NCBI GenBank assembly: GCA_002403175.1
Contig: DHHG01000322.1
Coordinates: 1-22,006 of the forward strand
Source of the DNA: Syntrophaceae bacterium UBA4778
GTDB lineage: Bacteria; Desulfobacterota; Syntrophia; Syntrophales; UBA4778
DNA length: 22,006 bases
Direction: 5' to 3'
The position numbers were made by a program, and so were the translations under genes. The notes beneath the pieces are model-generated. The model was given only the letters and a program-made list of their open reading frames with translations, ran no database searches and was not told the origin of the DNA. Positions within the stretch are counted from its first letter, which is position 1. Each line of letters begins with the position of its first letter. This document shows positions 493-7,578 of the stretch, piece by piece.

Positions 493-521
493 TTGACACT
501 TTACTTGTACACTGCTAAGAA
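493..521 (+). promoter_or_regulatory. Predicted trp operon promoter
   Basis: There is a perfect -35 hexamer TTGACA at 493-498, a 17-base spacer, and a -10 like TAAGAA at 516-521 preceded by TGC, which resembles an extended -10. Transcription would start near 528, about 20 bases before the leader peptide ATG. The -10 matches consensus poorly, so the promoter is supported mainly by the -35 box and by its position just upstream of the attenuator. Confidence 0.6.
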
Positions 522-549: not shown

Positions 550-624
550 ATGAAGTCAACCTTAATAATAAATTTAAATTGGTGGTGGTGGAGCAATTCT
601 GAGGAGAGGTCTGCCCACCGCTGA
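550..624 (+). CDS. trpL: trp operon leader peptide (WWWW)
   Basis: This 24-codon reading frame (ATG at 550, TGA at 622-624) begins MKSTLIINLN and has four tandem Trp codons at 580-591 (residues 11-14), then ends SEERSAHR. A purine-rich stretch GAAGAAG at 539-545 could serve as a weak ribosome binding site. It lies between a predicted promoter and an intrinsic terminator, directly upstream of trpE, which is the classic arrangement of a Trp attenuation leader. Ribosome stalling at the Trp codons when charged tRNA-Trp is scarce would leave arm 2 of the RNA (615-622) free. The peptide itself is expected to have no function beyond being translated. Confidence is high because a run of four Trp codons exactly here is very unlikely by chance. 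Confidence 0.93.
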   Translation: MKSTLIINLNWWWWSNSEERSAHR

Positions 625-679
625 AATTGAAAATTAAATCTAAGCCGTGGAAGCCTTCTCCGGGTTCCACGGCTTTTTT
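580..679 (+). promoter_or_regulatory. trp attenuator (arms 1-4 and terminator)
   Basis: Arm 1 is the Trp-codon run; GGTGG at 587-591 can pair with CCACC at 615-619 (arm 2). Arm 2 (615-622) can instead pair with arm 3 (643-650), giving seven of eight base pairs with one C-C mismatch, which would act as antiterminator. Arm 3 (642-652) also pairs perfectly over 11 bp with arm 4 (665-675), and six T residues (674-679) follow, giving an intrinsic terminator. The leader stop codon overlaps the end of arm 2, so a ribosome finishing the peptide would mask arm 2 and allow termination. All pairings are read from the sequence; the mechanism is that of known Trp attenuators. Confidence 0.9.
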
Positions 680-690
680 GTTTATAAACC

Positions 691-723
691 AAAAGGCCGT
701 GATCGAAAGTCACGGCCTTTTTT
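691..723 (+). terminator. Second tandem terminator hairpin in trp leader
   Basis: A perfect 12-bp stem (691-702 with 710-721) with a 7-base loop TCGAAAG runs into a T-stretch (718-723), so it has the form of an intrinsic terminator. It lies 12 bases after the T-run of the first terminator and about 50 bases before trpE. Its 5' arm resembles arm 3 and its 3' arm resembles arm 4 of the attenuator, so the arms can cross-pair. In particular 668-678 can pair with 691-701 over 11 bp with one G-U. It could be a backup terminator controlled indirectly by the first switch. Confidence 0.8.
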
Positions 724-772: not shown

Positions 773-2257
773 ATGCACTATCCGACCTTTGAAATGTTTG
801 AATCACTGGCATCCCGCGGCAATCTGATTCCCGTCTACCGGGAAATCCTGGCCGATACGGAAACTCCGTTGTCCGTCCTCATGAAATTGAGCGGCCGTCC
901 TTATGCCTTTCTCCTCGAAAGCGTTGAAGGAGGAGAAAAATGGGGGCGATACACATTTATCGGAGCGGACCCGCGTATCATCTTCCAGGTCGAAGGAGAG
1001 GATGTGCTGATCACGGAAAACAGTGTACCCCGGAGGATTCAGCATCAGGGAGATCCGATGCGAATACTGAAGGAGTTGCTCGACGACTGCAAACCCGTGC
1101 CCGTACCCGGACTGCCCCGCTTTTACGGAGGAGCAGTCGGCTTTCTTGGATACGATATGGTGCGTTATTTCGAGCGCCTTCCCAGCGGCTCCAAAGAAGA
1201 GCTCGGAACGCCTGATGCCGTATTCATGATTACGGATACGTTCATGATCTTCGATAATGCCCGCCATACAATGAAGATCGTGGCCTGCGCCAAAGTCGAT
1301 GAAGGCGGAGACCTCCGGAAGGTCTATGATTCCTGTATCGATAAAATCAACCAGTTGCATCAGATTGTGAAGGCGCCTCTTTCCCAGAACAAATCCAAGG
1401 TATCGGGAAACCATGTATCTCTCCGGTCGAACATGTCAGAGGACGATTTTCATTCCATGGTCGTCCGGGCGAAGGAATATATAGCAGCAGGGGATATTAT
1501 TCAGGCCGTCTTATCCCAACGCTTCGAGATTGAAAACAATCTGGACCCGGTTGATCTCTACCGGGCCCTTCGTTTTGTGAATCCATCGCCTTATCTGTTT
1601 TTTCTTAAAATGGAGGACTTTTATCTGATCGGTTCCTCGCCGGAGGTTATGGTCCGGCTTGAAGAGGGGGTTGTTGAACTCAGGCCCATTGCCGGCACGA
1701 GAAGGCGGGGCAAGGATGAGCAGGAGGACCGAAAATTGGCGGATGAACTTCTGGAGGACCCCAAAGAGAGGGCGGAGCACGTCATGCTGGTCGACCTGGG
1801 GAGGAATGACCTGGGAAGAATCGCCGAGATCGGCACCGTACAGGTCAATCAACTCATGACCGTCGAGCGTTATTCACACGTGATGCATCTCGTATCCAAT
1901 GTTCAGGCGCAGCTGCTTCCTGGCAAGAGTGCCTTTGATGTCCTGAGGGCGACCCTGCCCGCCGGAACTCTGTCCGGGGCGCCAAAAGTACGGGCCATGG
2001 AAATCATCGAGGAGCTTGAACCCGCACACCGAGGTCCATACGGCGGGGCGGTCGGATATTTCAGTTTCACAGGAAATATGGATTTCGGCATAACGATCCG
2101 GACGCTGATGATTAAAGACGGCAGAACCTTCATTCAAGCCGGGGCTGGTATTGTCGCCGACTCAGATCCGAAACTGGAATATCAGGAAACCCTGAACAAG
2201 GCCGAAGGAATGTTAAAGGCAGTCCGGATTGCTGCTGCCGATTTTGAACTGATGTAA
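773..2257 (+). CDS. trpE: Anthranilate synthase component I
   Basis: TrpE converts chorismate to anthranilate using ammonia delivered by TrpG, the first committed step of tryptophan synthesis, in the cytoplasm. The 494-residue length is normal. The N-terminal LLES motif at residues 47-50 matches the tryptophan feedback-binding element of TrpE. The chorismate-binding domain shows AGDIIQAVLSQR (239-250), ELRPIAGTRRRG (302-313), DLGRNDLGR (341-349), and PAGTLSGAPKVRAMEII near 396-412. These features favour TrpE over the para-aminobenzoate paralogue PabB, as does the operon context. The ATG at 773 follows AAAGGAG at about 8 bases. It is the first gene after the attenuator and probably also subject to enzyme-level Trp inhibition. 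Confidence 0.97.
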   Translation: MHYPTFEMFESLASRGNLIPVYREILADTETPLSVLMKLSGRPYAFLLESVEGGEKWGRYTFIGADPRIIFQVEGEDVLITENSVPRRIQHQGDPMRILKELLDDCKPVPVPGLPRFYGGAVGFLGYDMVRYFERLPSGSKEELGTPDAVFMITDTFMIFDNARHTMKIVACAKVDEGGDLRKVYDSCIDKINQLHQIVKAPLSQNKSKVSGNHVSLRSNMSEDDFHSMVVRAKEYIAAGDIIQAVLSQRFEIENNLDPVDLYRALRFVNPSPYLFFLKMEDFYLIGSSPEVMVRLEEGVVELRPIAGTRRRGKDEQEDRKLADELLEDPKERAEHVMLVDLGRNDLGRIAEIGTVQVNQLMTVERYSHVMHLVSNVQAQLLPGKSAFDVLRATLPAGTLSGAPKVRAMEIIEELEPAHRGPYGGAVGYFSFTGNMDFGITIRTLMIKDGRTFIQAGAGIVADSDPKLEYQETLNKAEGMLKAVRIAAADFELM

Positions 2258-2336
2258 AATGAGCAGGGTTTCACCTGAAGAGAAATTTTTGATAGCACCC
2301 GCAATTTTTTATGGGCCTTTCTAAAAGGAGGGAAAG

Positions 2337-2939
2337 ATGATTTTGATGATCGACAATTACGATTCCTTTACCTACAACCTGGTCCAGTACCTGGGTCAGC
2401 TCGGAGCTGAGGTGGAGGTTCGCAGAAACGATGAGGTCTCTCTGGATGAGATTAGAGAAATGAACCCGGAGGCAATTTTCCTATCCCCCGGTCCCTGCAC
2501 GCCTCGCGAGGCGGGCATCACCGTCGATGTGATCAAGGCCTTTTATAAAACCAAGCCGCTGATGGGGGTTTGCCTTGGTCATCAGGCGATCGGATATGCC
2601 TTCGGCGCTGATGTGGTGCGGGCAACCAGACTCATGCACGGAAAAACATCCAGCATCAAAAATGACGGCCGCACGATATTCAAAGGCATCCCCAATCCCT
2701 TCACCGCCGGACGGTATCATTCACTCATTATAGATAGAAATTCGCTACCACCCTTTCTCGAAATCAGCGCCGAAACGGAGGAGGGAGAGATTATGGGAAT
2801 CCGGCATCGGGAGTTTCTGGTTGAGGGCATTCAGTTCCATCCGGAATCGATCCTGACCCCGAACGGCAAACGCATGATGAAAAACTTTTTGGATATGATC
2901 AAATCCGATAAACAGGAGAAAGGAGATTCCTTGTCATGA
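2337..2939 (+). CDS. trpG: Anthranilate synthase component II (glutamine amidotransferase)
   Basis: TrpG hydrolyses glutamine and channels ammonia to TrpE. The 200-residue protein is a class I glutamine amidotransferase: nucleophile Cys79 in GVCLGHQ, and His168 with Glu170 in QFHPES complete the triad. LSPGPCTP (49-56) is the oxyanion-strand motif. The length shows a stand-alone subunit, with no fusion to trpD or trpE. A strong ribosome binding site AAAAGGAGGG (2323-2332) precedes the ATG after a 79-base gap from trpE. Its stop overlaps the trpD start by four bases (ATGA), which suggests translational coupling. The same subunit could also serve PabB, as in some bacteria, but nothing here tests that. 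Confidence 0.96.
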
Positions 2940-3946
2940 TCAAAGAATTAATTGCAAAAGTTGTCGGCGGCAACAATCTAATCGAAACGGAAATGATGCA
3001 GGGGATGACGGAAATCATGGAGGGCGAAGCCACCCCCGCCCAAATCGGGGCCTTCATAACCGCTTTGAGAATCAAAGGGGAAACAGTGGACGAGGTAACC
3101 GGAGCCGCGCGGATAATGCGTCGCAAGGCAACCCGAATCGATGCCTGCTCGTCGGTTATCGTCGATACCTGCGGAACGGGCGGAGATGGGATGAACACCT
3201 TTAATATTTCCACAACAGCGGCATTCGTTGTCGCCGCCGCAGGCATTACGGTCGCCAAGCACGGAAACCGGGCGGTCTCCAGCGGATGCGGCAGTGCCGA
3301 TGTCCTGGAGGCCTTGGGCATCAACATTGATGTCGGACCGGAGATCGTGGAGGAGTGCATTCAGCAGATCGGGATAGGCTTTCTCTTTGCTCCCAAACTC
3401 CATGGGGCGATGAAATATGCGATCGGTCCCCGCCGGGAAATCGGTATCCGGACTGTATTCAATATGCTTGGTCCGCTGACCAATCCCGCCGGTGCCACGG
3501 CCCAGTTAATCGGAGTTTACAGTCCTCAATTGACGGAGATGTTTGCCGGGGTTCTGAAAAATCTTGGAACGAAACGGGCTTTCATTGTTCACGGCTCGGA
3601 TGGCCTGGACGAAGCCACTGTTACGGGGCCGACCCGGGTCTCGGAGCTCCAGGGGGGACTGATTACAACATACAATATCGATCCCATCAGCCTTTTCGGA
3701 GAAGCCTATGAAGGACAGGAGATTAAAGGAGCAGACGCTGCCCGGAATGCCCAGATTACCAAAGACATTCTGTCCGGCAGAAATGGAGCACCGCGAAAAA
3801 TCGTTCTCCTCAATGCGGGCTTGGCCATTATGGCAGCCGAAAAAGCGGACAATATCAAAGAAGGTATTCGCATTGCAGCGGATTGTATCGACACTGGATG
3901 CGCTTTGAAGAAACTCCAGGCGCTTATTGAAATGACGAACAACTGA
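2936..3946 (+). CDS. trpD: Anthranilate phosphoribosyltransferase
   Basis: TrpD transfers the phosphoribosyl group of PRPP to anthranilate. The 336-residue length is typical. Visible family motifs are the PRPP/Mg-binding glycine loop GTGGDG (80-85), [15 protein letters not shown] (108-122), and [14 protein letters not shown] (172-185). The start overlaps the trpG stop in ATGA, with AGGAGAAAGGAG just upstream inside trpG. It is a stand-alone enzyme, unlike the enterobacterial TrpGD fusion. A 168-base gap with inverted repeats follows before trpC, the largest break inside the operon. Confidence 0.97.
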
Positions 3947-4114
3947 AGCAAATGGATCGAAAGGAAATATCGATCCTTAATTTCTGATGAAAAGAGCAAA
4001 AAAGGTTAGAAATTTTGATTAGGAACTGATAGCAATAAAGTTTGCAACCTTTTCGAACCCCAAATGGGATGAAAACATTTGATAAACAAACCAAATGCAA
4101 TCCGAGGAACAAAG
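3947..4114 (+). promoter_or_regulatory. trpD-trpC intergenic region with inverted repeats
   Basis: This gap holds GGATCGA/TCGATCC (3954-3960 with 3970-3976, 9-base loop) just after the trpD stop, and AAAAGGTT/AACCTTTT (4000-4007 with 4046-4053). The first hairpin has no proper T-run behind it, so it is not an obvious terminator. It could be an mRNA processing or stability element, but function is unknown. I see no convincing internal promoter. Confidence 0.35.
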
Positions 4115-4888
4115 ATGATTCTCGACCGAATCGTTGAGAAAAAAAAGGAGGAGCTGGAACAACAGAAAATTAGCCAGCCCCTGTCTGAGATAAAAAGGTA
4201 TCTTGCCGATCAAAAAATGCCCCGCGACTTTAAAGGGGCACTGATGGCAAAGCCGCGCGCAATCATTGCCGAAGTGAAGCGGAGTTCTCCTTCCAAGGGT
4301 AGACTGGTAAACGATTTCCATCCCGTTGAGATTGCGTCTCTTTACGAGGGAAACGGAGCAGCAGCAATTTCCGTTCTAACGGAAAAACATTTTTTCGAAG
4401 GAGACGGAACCTATCTCTCGGAAATCAAAAACTCCGTTCATATTCCGGTACTGAGAAAGGATTTCATCATCGACCCTTACCAGATCTATGAAACGAAAAT
4501 TCTGGGAGGAGATGCGCTTCTGCTGATCGCGTGTTTACTCGATCAGGGGCAACTAAACGGCTACATCGGCCTTGCTGCGGAACTCGGATTGGCAGCGCTC
4601 GTTGAAGTGCATGATCGAAGCGATCTGGAGAAGGCTGTTTACGCGAAAGCGGATCTGATCGGGATCAATAATCGCAATCTAAAGACATTTACGATCGATC
4701 TTCAGACAACCATTGATCTGGTTCAAGAGATTCCCGACGGCAGCATTGTAGTCAGTGAAAGCGGCATTCAGTCGCGCCAGGATATAGAGCGGCTGGAGTC
4801 ATTCGGAGTCCATGCTTTTCTCATCGGTGAAGTTTTGATGCGTTCCGGAAATATCCCTAAAAAGCTCTCGGAGTTGCTCCATGATTGA
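4115..4888 (+). CDS. trpC: Indole-3-glycerol-phosphate synthase
   Basis: TrpC decarboxylates and cyclises CdRP to indole-3-glycerol phosphate. I chose the ATG at 4115 (protein MILDRIVEKKKEEL, 257 residues) because it follows GAGG at 4104-4107 with good spacing and matches the usual family N-terminus; an in-frame TTG at 4079 would add 12 residues. It is a TIM barrel with IIAEVKRSSPSKG (50-62, catalytic Lys55), PVLRKDFI (111-118, catalytic Lys115), ALVEVHD (161-167, Glu164), GINNRNL (183-189) and VVSESGI (212-218). It is a single-domain enzyme not fused to TrpF. Its 3' end overlaps trpF by 8 bases. Confidence 0.96.
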   Translation: MILDRIVEKKKEELEQQKISQPLSEIKRYLADQKMPRDFKGALMAKPRAIIAEVKRSSPSKGRLVNDFHPVEIASLYEGNGAAAISVLTEKHFFEGDGTYLSEIKNSVHIPVLRKDFIIDPYQIYETKILGGDALLLIACLLDQGQLNGYIGLAAELGLAALVEVHDRSDLEKAVYAKADLIGINNRNLKTFTIDLQTTIDLVQEIPDGSIVVSESGIQSRQDIERLESFGVHAFLIGEVLMRSGNIPKKLSELLHD

Positions 4889-5594
4889 AATCAAGATTTG
4901 CGGAATAACCAATAAGGAAGATGCCCTTACCGCTTGCGAGGCCGGGGCAGACGCAGTCGGGTTCATATTCTATCCTCAGAGTCCCCGTTATATTCTTCCC
5001 GAACAGGCAAAAAAAATTATCCAGGCATTGCCCCCTGAAATTTGCAGAGTCGGAGTATTCGTCAATCTCGATTTGCTCAATTTAAACGAAATTTCTACCT
5101 TCTGTAATCTTGACCTGATTCAACTCCATGGAGATGAATCTACTGATTACTGTCGTAAGCTCCCGGCTTCCCGGCTAATCAAATCCCTTTCCCCCGTAAA
5201 CGAACAGGATGTCGATCGTGCGGAAGACTATCCAACGAAGGCGATCCTGGTAGATTCCCGAACGCACTCGAAGTATGGCGGGACCGGACAAACTGTAGAC
5301 TGGAATCTGGCCGCAAAGATGAAATCCAAGCGCCCGTTGATCCTGGCCGGAGGCCTGAAGGCGGAGAATGTCGCCGTAGCGATTGCGGCAGTCGGTCCAG
5401 ACGCACTGGACTTCTGCAGCGGTGTCGAATCGATGCCGAGGCAAAAAGATCCGGAAAAAATCAGGAGCGTTATCGAAATCGTCCGGAGATCATCTCCGGC
5501 AAGCGGGGGGGAACAGATAAAAATCTTCACCCGTACCGAAATTGCAGTTGAAAAGGATGAGCAGAAAACGATTGGTGCTGCTGAAAGGAAATAA
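4881..5594 (+). CDS. trpF: Phosphoribosylanthranilate isomerase
   Basis: TrpF performs the Amadori rearrangement of phosphoribosylanthranilate to CdRP, the step before TrpC. The barrel shows KICGIT with catalytic Cys7, QLHGDE (81-86), the catalytic Asp125 in ILVDS, GGTG (133-136) for phosphate binding, and FCSGVE (178-183). At 237 residues it is longer than the usual 200-215: roughly the last 30 residues (205-237, charged, low similarity to the fold) look like an unstructured tail. The start overlaps trpC by 8 bases and its stop shares one base with the trpB start (TAATG), so it is embedded in a coupled trpC-F-B block. Confidence 0.95.
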
Positions 5595-6784
5595 TGAAAA
5601 AATCATTACCTGATAAAAAGGGGCACTTTGGCGAATTTGGTGGGCGGTATGCCGCGGAGACCCTGATGCCCGCTCTGATAGAACTGGAAAGGGCTTACCG
5701 GGACGCAAAAAAAGATCCCCTCTTCCGCCGGGAATTTTTCCGATATCTCCGCGAATATGCCGGTCGGGAGACTCCCCTCTTTTTTGCCGAAAGGCTGACC
5801 AAAAAACTCGGAGGAGCAAAAATCTATCTCAAGCGGGAGGATCTGAATCACACCGGTTCCCACAAAATAAACAATACCCTCGGGCAAGCCCTGCTTGCCA
5901 GGCGCATGGGAAAGAAACGGGTCATTGCTGAAACAGGCGCCGGCCAGCATGGAGTGGCAACCGCCACAGTCGCTGCCCTTTTCGGGATGGAATGCAGCAT
6001 TTTTATGGGAGAGGAAGATATCGAAAGGCAGGCTCCCAACGTCTTCCGGATGAAGGTCCTTGGGGCCGAGGTTGTCCCGGTTGCGTCGGGAACGGCAACC
6101 CTCAAGGATGCCATGAACGAAGCCATGCGCCACTGGGTGTCTCGGGTGCGGGATACGTTTTACATGATCGGAACCACCGCAGGCCCGCATCCCTATCCGA
6201 TGATGGTGCGTGATTTTCAATGCGTAATCGGTGAAGAGGCGAAAAAACAGATCATCAAAGCCGAAGGCAGATTTCCGGATATGATCGTTGCCTGTGTCGG
6301 AGGCGGAAGCAATGCAATGGGAATCTTTTATCCATTCCGGGACATAGAAGAGGTCCGTCTTTTCGGAGTGGAAGCCGCCGGAAAAGGCATAAAGACGGGA
6401 ATGCACTCCGCCAGCATCAGCGCGGGACAGATCGGAGTTCTTCACGGCAACAAGACGTATCTCCTTCAGGACAGCAACGGCCAGATTCGGGATGCCTACT
6501 CGATCGCCGCCGGACTGGATTACCCGGGAGTCGGTCCGGAGCACGGATATTTCAACGAAACAGGAAGAGCCGCTTACGTGACAGTCACAGACACGGAGGC
6601 GATTGAAGCATTTATTCTCCTTTCCAAAACGGAGGGCATCATCCCGGCGATGGAAAGTTCACATGCCCTGGCCTATGCCATGAAGATCGCCCCGACGCTT
6701 GACAAGAAGAAGATAATTATCGTCAATCTGTCCGGCAGAGGAGATAAGGATGCTGCTTCCATTGCCGAATACTTAGGGAAATAA
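5594..6784 (+). CDS. trpB: Tryptophan synthase beta chain
   Basis: TrpB condenses indole with serine using pyridoxal phosphate. The 396-residue protein is a classical TrpB1 type. The PLP Schiff-base lysine is Lys91 in HTGSHKINN, the catalytic glutamate lies in AETGAGQHG (Glu113), and GGGSN (236-240) binds the PLP phosphate. The ribosome binding site AAAGGA lies inside the end of trpF, and the ATG overlaps the trpF stop by one base. It would form an alpha2-beta2 complex with TrpA encoded two bases downstream. Confidence 0.97.
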
Positions 6785-6786
6785 TC

Positions 6787-7578
6787 ATGGGAAGAATCGA
6801 ACAAAAATTTCTGAAGCTGAAAGAAACAGGCGACAAGGCGCTGATTGCTTATCTGATCGCAGGCGATCCCGATTTGCAAACAACCAGCGAATTGATTCAC
6901 GAGCTGGAGCGATCCGGAATCGATATCATCGAGATCGGAGTCCCTTTCTCCGATCCCACAGCAGACGGGCCTGTCATTCAGGCCGCCTCCCAGAGGGCGC
7001 TGAAAAGCGGAACCAACCTTTCCGGCATTCTCAAAATGATTACCTCCCTGCGGAGGACGTCTGATATTCCCCTTGTGCTGTTCGGTTATTTTAATCCCAT
7101 TCTCCATTACGGGTGTGAGCGCTTTGCTGCGGATACAAAGGCAGCAGGTGTGGATGCCATCCTGATCGTTGACCTCCCTCCGGAGGAATCAAACGAACTA
7201 AGGCGCTTCACCGATCCCCTTGGAATCGATCTCATCTCGCTCATTGCACCGACTACAGACTCTGCTCGAGCTGCGGCCATTTGTAAGACCGCCTCGGGAT
7301 TTATCTATTACATTTCCATAACAGGGGTAACCGGAACGGCAAAGCCCCAAGTCGATCTTATTCGGCGTGATATTCAAAACATAAAAAAAACAACAAACCT
7401 TCCTATAGCTGTGGGATTTGGCATCTCAACGCCGGAAGATGCAGCCAAAATTGCCCCGCATGCCGATGGGATTGTCGTCGGAAGCGCCTTCGTTCGCCTG
7501 ATAGAGCAATACGGAGCGAATAAGCAATTGTTCGGGAAAGTAGGTGCATTCGCGAAAAGCCTCCGAAAGGCAATATAG
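6787..7578 (+). CDS. trpA: Tryptophan synthase alpha chain
   Basis: TrpA cleaves indole-3-glycerol phosphate to indole and glyceraldehyde-3-phosphate, passing indole to TrpB. The 263-residue TIM barrel has both catalytic acids in the classical numbering: Glu49 in [12 protein letters not shown] and Asp60 in TADGP. The active-site loop region is [12 protein letters not shown], and the phosphate-binding end is VGFGIS and GIVVGSAFV. It is the last gene of the operon, starting two bases after the trpB stop. No strong intrinsic terminator follows; the only nearby candidate is a 6-bp stem (ATTCTG/CAGAAT, 7621-7640). Confidence 0.97.

Follow-up and report, generated by a model that had tools for sequence, protein, structure and literature searches.

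The trp leader and its six pairing arms

The trp operon of Syntrophaceae bacterium UBA4778 stands at the start of the window, the stretch of 22,006 nucleotides (nt) analyzed here (contig DHHG01000322.1, assembly GCA_002403175.1), where a leader precedes trpE. The RNA of this leader can form six pairing arms (numbered 1 to 6; 4:5 denotes the pairing of arm 4 with arm 5), and it is probably a ribosome-mediated transcription attenuator in which the arms act as one chain with two terminators, T1 (3:4) and T2 (5:6), so that a single ribosome stall disables both. The predicted product of the leader open reading frame (ORF) at 550–624 is MKSTLIINLNWWWWSNSEERSAHR, including WWWW (translation), and the remaining features are listed in Table 1.

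The initial annotation described a standard Trp attenuator with a second complete terminator hairpin behind it, and both hairpins were recovered by folding, each with its own U-run (Table 1). T1 and T2 have GCCGTG/CACGGC in common. The complementarity claimed for arm 4 (668–678) and arm 5 (691–701) is present exactly as described, with 11 pairs including one G-U, and the 4:5 hairpin, when folded with its flanks, gains an extra GUUU:AAAC pairing inside that brings it to the stability given in Table 1. The 5:6 hairpin, annotated with 12 bp, folds with 13 pairs owing to an additional closing U-G, and the T2 core minus its A-U pairs retains −15.0 kcal/mol. Before trpE, the antiterminator 2:3 (−9.7 kcal/mol in isolation; 615–618/620–622 with 643–645/647–650 and one C.C mismatch) and the terminator 3:4 are mutually exclusive, based on folds and profiles. 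The consensus of arm 2 in our alignment A1 is GTCCGCCGCTGA. The fold of the leader as a whole (528–773) outranks 200 of 200 shuffles (z −5.62).

Table 1 Features of the trp leader and the start of the operon in the window (energies are for isolated hairpins unless stated otherwise).
Feature	Position	Strand	Details and basis
Likely promoter	493–521	+	TTGACA 493–498, 17 nt spacer, TGC-TAAGAA with −10 at 516–521; read by eye
trp leader peptide gene	550–624	+	24 codons, four Trp codons 580–591, stop UGA 622–624; translation
Arm 1	579–592	+	overlaps Trp codons; partner arm 2; fold of 579–625, −20.0 kcal/mol
Arm 2	611–624	+	partner arm 1, or 615–622 with arm 3 643–650; folds
Arm 3	642–655	+	core GCCGTGG 644–650
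Arm 4 of T1	662–679	+	core CCACGGC 667–673; U-run 674–679
Terminator T1 (3:4)	642–679	+	hairpin 642–675, −23.2 kcal/mol; U-run 674–679
Arm 5	691–703	+	AAAAGGCCGUG, complementary to arm 4 668–678
Arm 6 and T2 U-run	709–723	+	fold; terminator scan
Terminator T2 (5:6)	691–723	+	hairpin 691–721, −19.3 kcal/mol; U-run 718–723; listed as terminator-like by the scan
4:5 relay hairpin, putative T2 antiterminator	668–701	+	−16.8 kcal/mol with flanks; conserved
trpE, first gene of the operon	773–2257	+	TIGR00564 trpE_most over cut-off; Pfam PF00425 and PF04715

The likely promoter is absent from the list of the consensus scan, whose rule requires T as the final −10 base. Downstream of the leader, 773–7578 holds seven consecutive ORFs, among which trpE and a trpG-type amidotransferase are supported by profile; we take the series to be trpE-G-D-C-F-B-A, the gene names other than trpE and trpG being presumptive.

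Conservation and covariation of 4:5 within the order

The closest named TrpE records (L001–L003) belong to Syntrophaceae and Syntrophobacterales metagenome-assembled genomes (MAGs) with 69% identity, and the order of one named relative (155 genomes; a class search gave the same number) was used for comparison. TrpE was found at E≤1e-80 in 112 of the 155 genomes. Seven of these were left out, four without a TrpE start and three (G051, G102, and G125) with a partial TrpE that has a start; in these three, a covariance model built from the 99 leaders described below (hereafter, R1) matches over its full length just upstream of TrpE. The other 105 genomes, together with the window and L002 (a named relative not listed in the order), provided 107 trpE upstream regions, of which four are cut by contig ends (L085, L135, L154, and L180), leaving 103 that could be evaluated. 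T1 and hairpin 2 are both present in 99 of the 103, and Trp codons were also found in the leaders of relatives. All counts for the order are of sequences, not evolutionary events, and the finding of hairpin arms favored likeness to the motifs of the window, which is a mild bias.

The coupling suggested in the initial annotation should leave conservation or covariation of 4:5 in relatives, and both were found, with 4:5 being the best kept of the four pairings and arms 4 and 5 co-varying across lineages. The inner five pairs are broken in none of the 99 leaders for 4:5, in one for 3:4, in three for 5:6, and in 13 for 3:6, and all six core pairs of 4:5 are present in 92. Arm 5 is better conserved than arm 6 and varies almost as little as arm 3 (per-site entropy: 0–0.55 vs 0–0.56 bits); the first bases of the T2 loop are near random (1.4–2.0 bits), and the length of this loop ranges from 3 to 13. 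When the 8-nt core of arm 5 was permuted (20 permutations for each leader), the median fold was −7.5 compared to −16.2 for the real sequences, and 1.3% of the permutations did as well as the real sequence.

One variable site provides the covariation (arm 4/5/6: A/T/A in 62 leaders, G/T/A in 19, A/T/G in 11, G/C/G in six, and G/C/A in one). Arm 5 carries C solely with G in arm 4 (7/7), and A is never found with C. Given G in arm 6, arm 4 predicts arm 5 in 17/17 cases (Fisher p 8e-5 on sequences; about three independent lineages by reading); given A in arm 6, the association between arms 4 and 5 at this site is not significant across the 99 leaders (p 0.24). Furthermore, arm 6 has diverged from arm 5 in L100, L138, and L183, and arm 4 still matches arm 5 in all three.

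These results bear on a simpler explanation, in which T2 is a plain back-up terminator that arose by duplication of T1, the 4:5 match is a by-product of their common sequence, and T2 reduces expression in every state. Genomes in general often contain tandem terminators, and the GCCGTG/CACGGC sequences common to T1 and T2 speak for such an origin. A simple duplication of T1 would treat both cross-pairings alike, however, whereas 4:5 is whole in 99/99 leaders with 3:6 broken in 13 of them. The match of arm 5 to arm 4 in leaders with a diverged arm 6 also argues against it, as does the expectation that a strong T2 without coupling would block the operon during starvation as well. A stock or generic terminator was considered as the source of the T2 sequence. 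The exact hairpin GGCCGTGA-N3-12-TCACGGCC was found in 68 of the 155 genomes (reversed control: 4 genomes), once in 63 and twice in five, and the match lies just upstream of TrpE in 57 of the 68, at the best trp-type R1 hit in three (G067, G074, and G153), at lower-scoring R1 places in four (G090, G091, G092, and G096), and elsewhere in four (G095, G099, G145, and G151). Because the exact hairpin is rare in each genome and mostly upstream of TrpE, a stock terminator is disfavored, and its scarcity elsewhere in these genomes counts against a plain back-up terminator too. Mere duplication is weakened by the 4:5 and 3:6 counts but retains some probability, since 3:6 also covaries, and we regard the back-up explanation as unlikely.

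Alternatively, the T2 palindrome could be kept as a protein-binding site in DNA or RNA (an operator, or the site of a leader-binding factor) and not for 4:5. Both half-sites are strongly conserved in sequence, and palindromes serving as both terminator and factor site are discussed in a passage by Naville and Gautheret (PMC2965389). The spacing of the half-sites nevertheless varies from 3 to 13 nt, which disfavors a DNA operator in particular, and the distance to trpE varies from 19 to 246 nt; the loop bases are unconserved, and arm 5 is kept better than its partner half-site. In addition, TrpR-family proteins exceed the cut-off in just 6 of 60 genomes of the order, although MAGs may be incomplete. 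A binding site is therefore a highly improbable reason for the conservation.

U-runs of at least four were found at both hairpins in 86 of the 99 leaders, and no leader is weak at both. T1 is weak in three (L100, L131, and L167), with its U-run lost or weakened, and six U are present at T2 in all three. By eye, the U-run of the first hairpin is also lost or interrupted in L299, from outside the order, with the second terminator retaining its own; these four leaders are natural candidates for a pure relay. T2 is weak in ten leaders by the U-run rule, although the longer stem of L138 has a U-run of its own. Conserved hairpin-2 arms without a U-run were observed in L132, L143, L147, L152, L155, L162, L163, and L186.

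Computed switching between 4:5 and 5:6

Switching was computed as equilibrium values on truncated RNA, not as kinetics. For the window with 2:3 held and 13 nt protected, the probability of 4:5 is 1.0 with the polymerase at 714–728, 0.56 at 730, and 0.02 at 735; with 9 nt protected, it is 1.0 up to 723, 0.56 at 726, and 0.34 at 728. In the 99 leaders, the polymerase was placed at the U-run of T2, on the sixth base after the T2 core, with 13, 11, 9, or 8 nt protected. When arm 4 is free, the probability of 4:5 is at least 0.9 in 98, 98, 98, and 93 leaders, respectively, and that of 5:6 is at least 0.5 in 1, 1, 4, and 5, whereas with arm 4 held in 3:4 the probability of 5:6 is at least 0.5 in 0, 9, 91, and 98. 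The 4:5 hairpin is at least as stable as the T2 core in 78 of the 99. The reservation in the initial annotation that 5:6 may outcompete 4:5 thus holds for the finished RNA but not for the computed decision window, because arm 6 is then still inside the polymerase. Without 2:3 held, 3:4 wins at equilibrium once arm 4 emerges, save near balance at 714–723, and 2:3 must therefore act by forming first.

The same computations bear on a different role for 4:5, which could act mainly as a lock preventing 3:4 from displacing 2:3, or as an element for pausing or stability, and not for relief of T2. Once arm 5 emerges in the stalled state, the computed balance returns to the 4:5 form (0.53–0.60 with the polymerase at 718–723), and hairpin 2 is kept in nine leaders without a U-run, both of which fit such a role. 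However, T1 has already been passed by the polymerase when arm 5 emerges, so a lock cannot alter the T1 decision, and most leaders do have a T2 U-run (the 86 with runs at both hairpins). A role mainly in locking, pausing, or stability is scarcely credible.

Candidate tandem attenuators outside the order and at other genes

TrpE was identified at E≤1e-60 in 133 of 158 phylum genomes, five of which are in the order, and 85 of the 128 trpE upstream regions outside the order were examined, taken down the score ranking. Based on a fixed rule, a terminator follows a short Trp-rich ORF in 40 of the 85 (in tandem in 15, singly in 25); in a further 15 no terminator was placed behind the Trp-rich ORF, and 30 have no such ORF. 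This fixed-rule count (15/40) was used instead of the count by eye (15 tandem among 38 Trp leaders); the rule misses L296, L299, and L301, which have two hairpins by eye, and includes the doubtful L379. The tandem arm sequences differ outside the order, yet arm 4 pairs with its own arm 5 (e.g., CCTGCGG with CCGCAGG in L382, CACGGT with ACCGTG in L334, and CCACGGC with GTTGTGG in L327). A swap test was made with the 18 pairs called automatically, minus L348, L364, and L379 (in which the first or second hairpin is doubtful) and L328 (for lack of a Trp leader), plus the window, L002, L136, and L129. Own 4:5 duplexes are more stable than species-swapped ones (−17.5 vs −14.8; permutation p 2e-4, n=18), also when all 22 pairs are included (−16.8 vs −13.7; p 5e-5), and the real 4:5 beats shuffles of arm 5 at p<0.05 in 13 of 18.

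The pattern CACGGCTTTT-N4-34-AAGGCCGTG occurs in 20 of 395 phylum genomes (reversed control: 3). Seven of these matches are trp leaders already counted in the order, and the other 13 (L248–L257 and L265–L267) each follow a leader peptide in which aromatic residues are clustered; eight have Trp-type leaders, those of L251 and L267 on the opposite strand. L252 and L253 precede aldolases of the 2-amino-3,7-dideoxy-D-threo-hept-6-ulosonate (ADH) synthase type (TIGR01949 over cut-off in L252; by similarity in L253). The leaders of these two mix Phe, Tyr, and Trp (FFYFNWYFYYWF; YFGFYWYFY) ahead of tandem terminators, and their sequences are consistent with sensing of all three aromatic amino acids. 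L254, L265, and L266 precede 3-deoxy-D-arabino-heptulosonate 7-phosphate (DAHP) synthases (identified by Pfam in L265 and by similarity in the other two), and their leaders are rich in aromatic residues (YYFWYFF, NWCWWWAW, and FFWWRWWW) and have tandem terminators. A looser two-arm pattern (65/395 phylum genomes) picked up noise along with real leaders and does not enter the counts.

R1 also picks up second loci inside the order, and 20 lower-scoring places were examined, of about 42 among the matches listed. A clustered-Phe leader (FFSFFSFF-like) was computed in 18 of the 20; L228 and L231 fall outside the script rule, yet Phe codons can be read in both sequences. L229–L245 and L247 (and L228 and L246) have the appearance of a second tandem attenuator of the order with a Phe-rich leader. 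The downstream genes encode substrate-binding proteins of the Peripla_BP_6 type (L233 by Pfam) or AMP-binding ligases (L246 by Pfam), with the others assigned by similarity, which suggests that Phe-type leaders may control uptake or activation genes. The 4:5 pairing is complete over its 11 positions in 13 of these 20 loci and has one or two gaps in the remaining seven; in L229, L237, and L247, arm 6 is short of one paired base with 4:5 whole. The GCCGTG core is common to the trp, Phe, DAHP, and ADH-synthase leaders, with the pattern and model searches favoring that core; common descent of the leaders is possible, as is something acting in trans. We tentatively suggest that the relay attenuator could be a lineage-wide device of the aromatic regulon in the phylum, in which a stall is passed down the arms to the second terminator, reused for Trp, Phe, and mixed Phe/Tyr/Trp, with the first hairpin of L100 and L167 possibly relay-only.

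Relation to known attenuators

In textbook attenuation, each decision involves one terminator. The Escherichia coli trp attenuator consists of a Trp-codon leader peptide and arms 1–4, with 2:3 as antiterminator and 3:4 as terminator; the leader described here is alike in its Trp codons and arms 1–4, and differs by the addition of arms 5 and 6. No Rfam family reached the gathering threshold in the window, and the Rfam Trp_leader family, which we take to be RF00513, was not among the 23 weak hits. In the enterobacterial his attenuator, with arms A–F, C:D is a further pairing. The his leader of Salmonella is described with A-B and the terminator E:F, its read-through form having B:C and D:E (PMC4046918). 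Similarly, our leader combines a leader peptide with six alternating arms that pair as 1:2, 3:4, and 5:6 or as 2:3 and 4:5. Whereas E:F is the sole terminator of the his attenuator, 3:4 and 5:6 are both terminators here, with a U-run also after 3:4, and Trp codons and trpE are found in place of His codons and the his operon. By anatomy, this is a leader-peptide attenuator whose predicted short ORF has many codons for the amino acid under control; it is not Rfam Trp_leader by score, nor of the his type by terminator number, and it is best read as the six-arm his attenuator in a variant form, with two terminators in place of one.

Two other systems share part of this design. The Salmonella mgtCBR leader also contains two attenuation devices, but it has two ORFs, responds to two signals that act independently of each other, and forms stem-loops unlike intrinsic terminators (PMC3641672). 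The rimP-leader of some Gammaproteobacteria has tandem terminators, the upstream one with an antiterminator and the inverse motif CCCg/cGGG, and the accessible part of its description mentions no leader peptide or relay (PMC2965389). Among literature titles and abstract openings, with most subscription journals outside coverage, no two-terminator leader-peptide attenuator was found.

Proposed mechanism and implications

Several observations weigh against a relay from T1 to T2. The terminal C-G of the 4:5 core is lost in 7 of the 99 leaders, and the base of arm 5 next to the core is unpaired with arm 4 in 71. Four upstream regions that could be evaluated lack the pair of hairpins, with T1 only in L095, an aberrant first hairpin in L179, and no leader adjoining trpE in L086 and L116. 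R1 finds no leader in the genome of L086 (G005); its match in that of L116 (G135) is a trp-type leader lying some 1.1 kb upstream of trpE (contig 285, 3009–3136). The stretch between this leader and trpE resembles the end of a DAHP synthase gene, which may be the start of the operon in G135. Nine T2 hairpins lack a U-run of at least four (L138 excluded; L102 interrupted only), for which the model gives no explanation. Outside the order, one terminator was detected in 25 of 40 Trp leaders, so T2 is not required in general, and five of the 18 4:5 pairs (L351, L353, L373, L136, and L322) do not beat shuffles. There is also an own-species excess of 3:6 (p 0.0024 over swaps; 11/18 over shuffles), weaker than that of 4:5; a shared origin of T1 and T2 therefore accounts for part of the 4:5 signal, and this enrichment speaks for the back-up terminator as well. 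How clearly switching is computed varies with the protected length: it is clear at 8–9 nt, whereas at 11–13 nt T2 hardly forms in either state. L131, a candidate for the relay, performs poorly, and 5:6 forms weakly in L100 (0.57 at 8 nt). Only in 23 of the 99 does the stability of 4:5 equal or exceed that of the full T2. Finally, the finished RNA favors 5:6 over 4:5 and 3:4 over 2:3, and the scheme therefore requires co-transcriptional control.

The sequences and folds show six complementary and conserved arms with a computed preference for 4:5, and the reading of one stall disabling both terminators builds on this. When Trp-tRNA is scarce, the ribosome would stall on UGGUGGUGGUGG and cover arm 1, so that 2:3 would form and arm 4 would be left free. 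The free arm 4 would capture arm 5 upon its exit from the polymerase, leaving arm 6 without a partner, and the polymerase would pass both T1 and T2. When Trp is plentiful, the ribosome would reach the stop codon over arm 2, 3:4 would terminate, and polymerases leaking past T1 would encounter 5:6 because arm 4 would be locked in 3:4. If there is no translation, 1:2, 3:4, and 5:6 would form and both terminators would act. The kinetic coupling and tighter off state put forward in the initial annotation are inferred, as are the timing in vivo and the termination efficiencies; the coupling is a computed one, with a lower leak as the presumed purpose.

Leaders with both terminators, with a weakened T1, or with a weakened T2 form a natural series suited to the study of co-transcriptional strand exchange, and stacked RNA switches could be designed by the simple rule that the arrangement offers. 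Should the arrangement be confirmed, leader annotation would gain a class that Rfam did not detect in the window. With TrpR-like proteins rare in the order, this leader may be the main control of Trp, and one stall disabling two terminators would, if true, combine a low leak with full induction where such proteins are rare.
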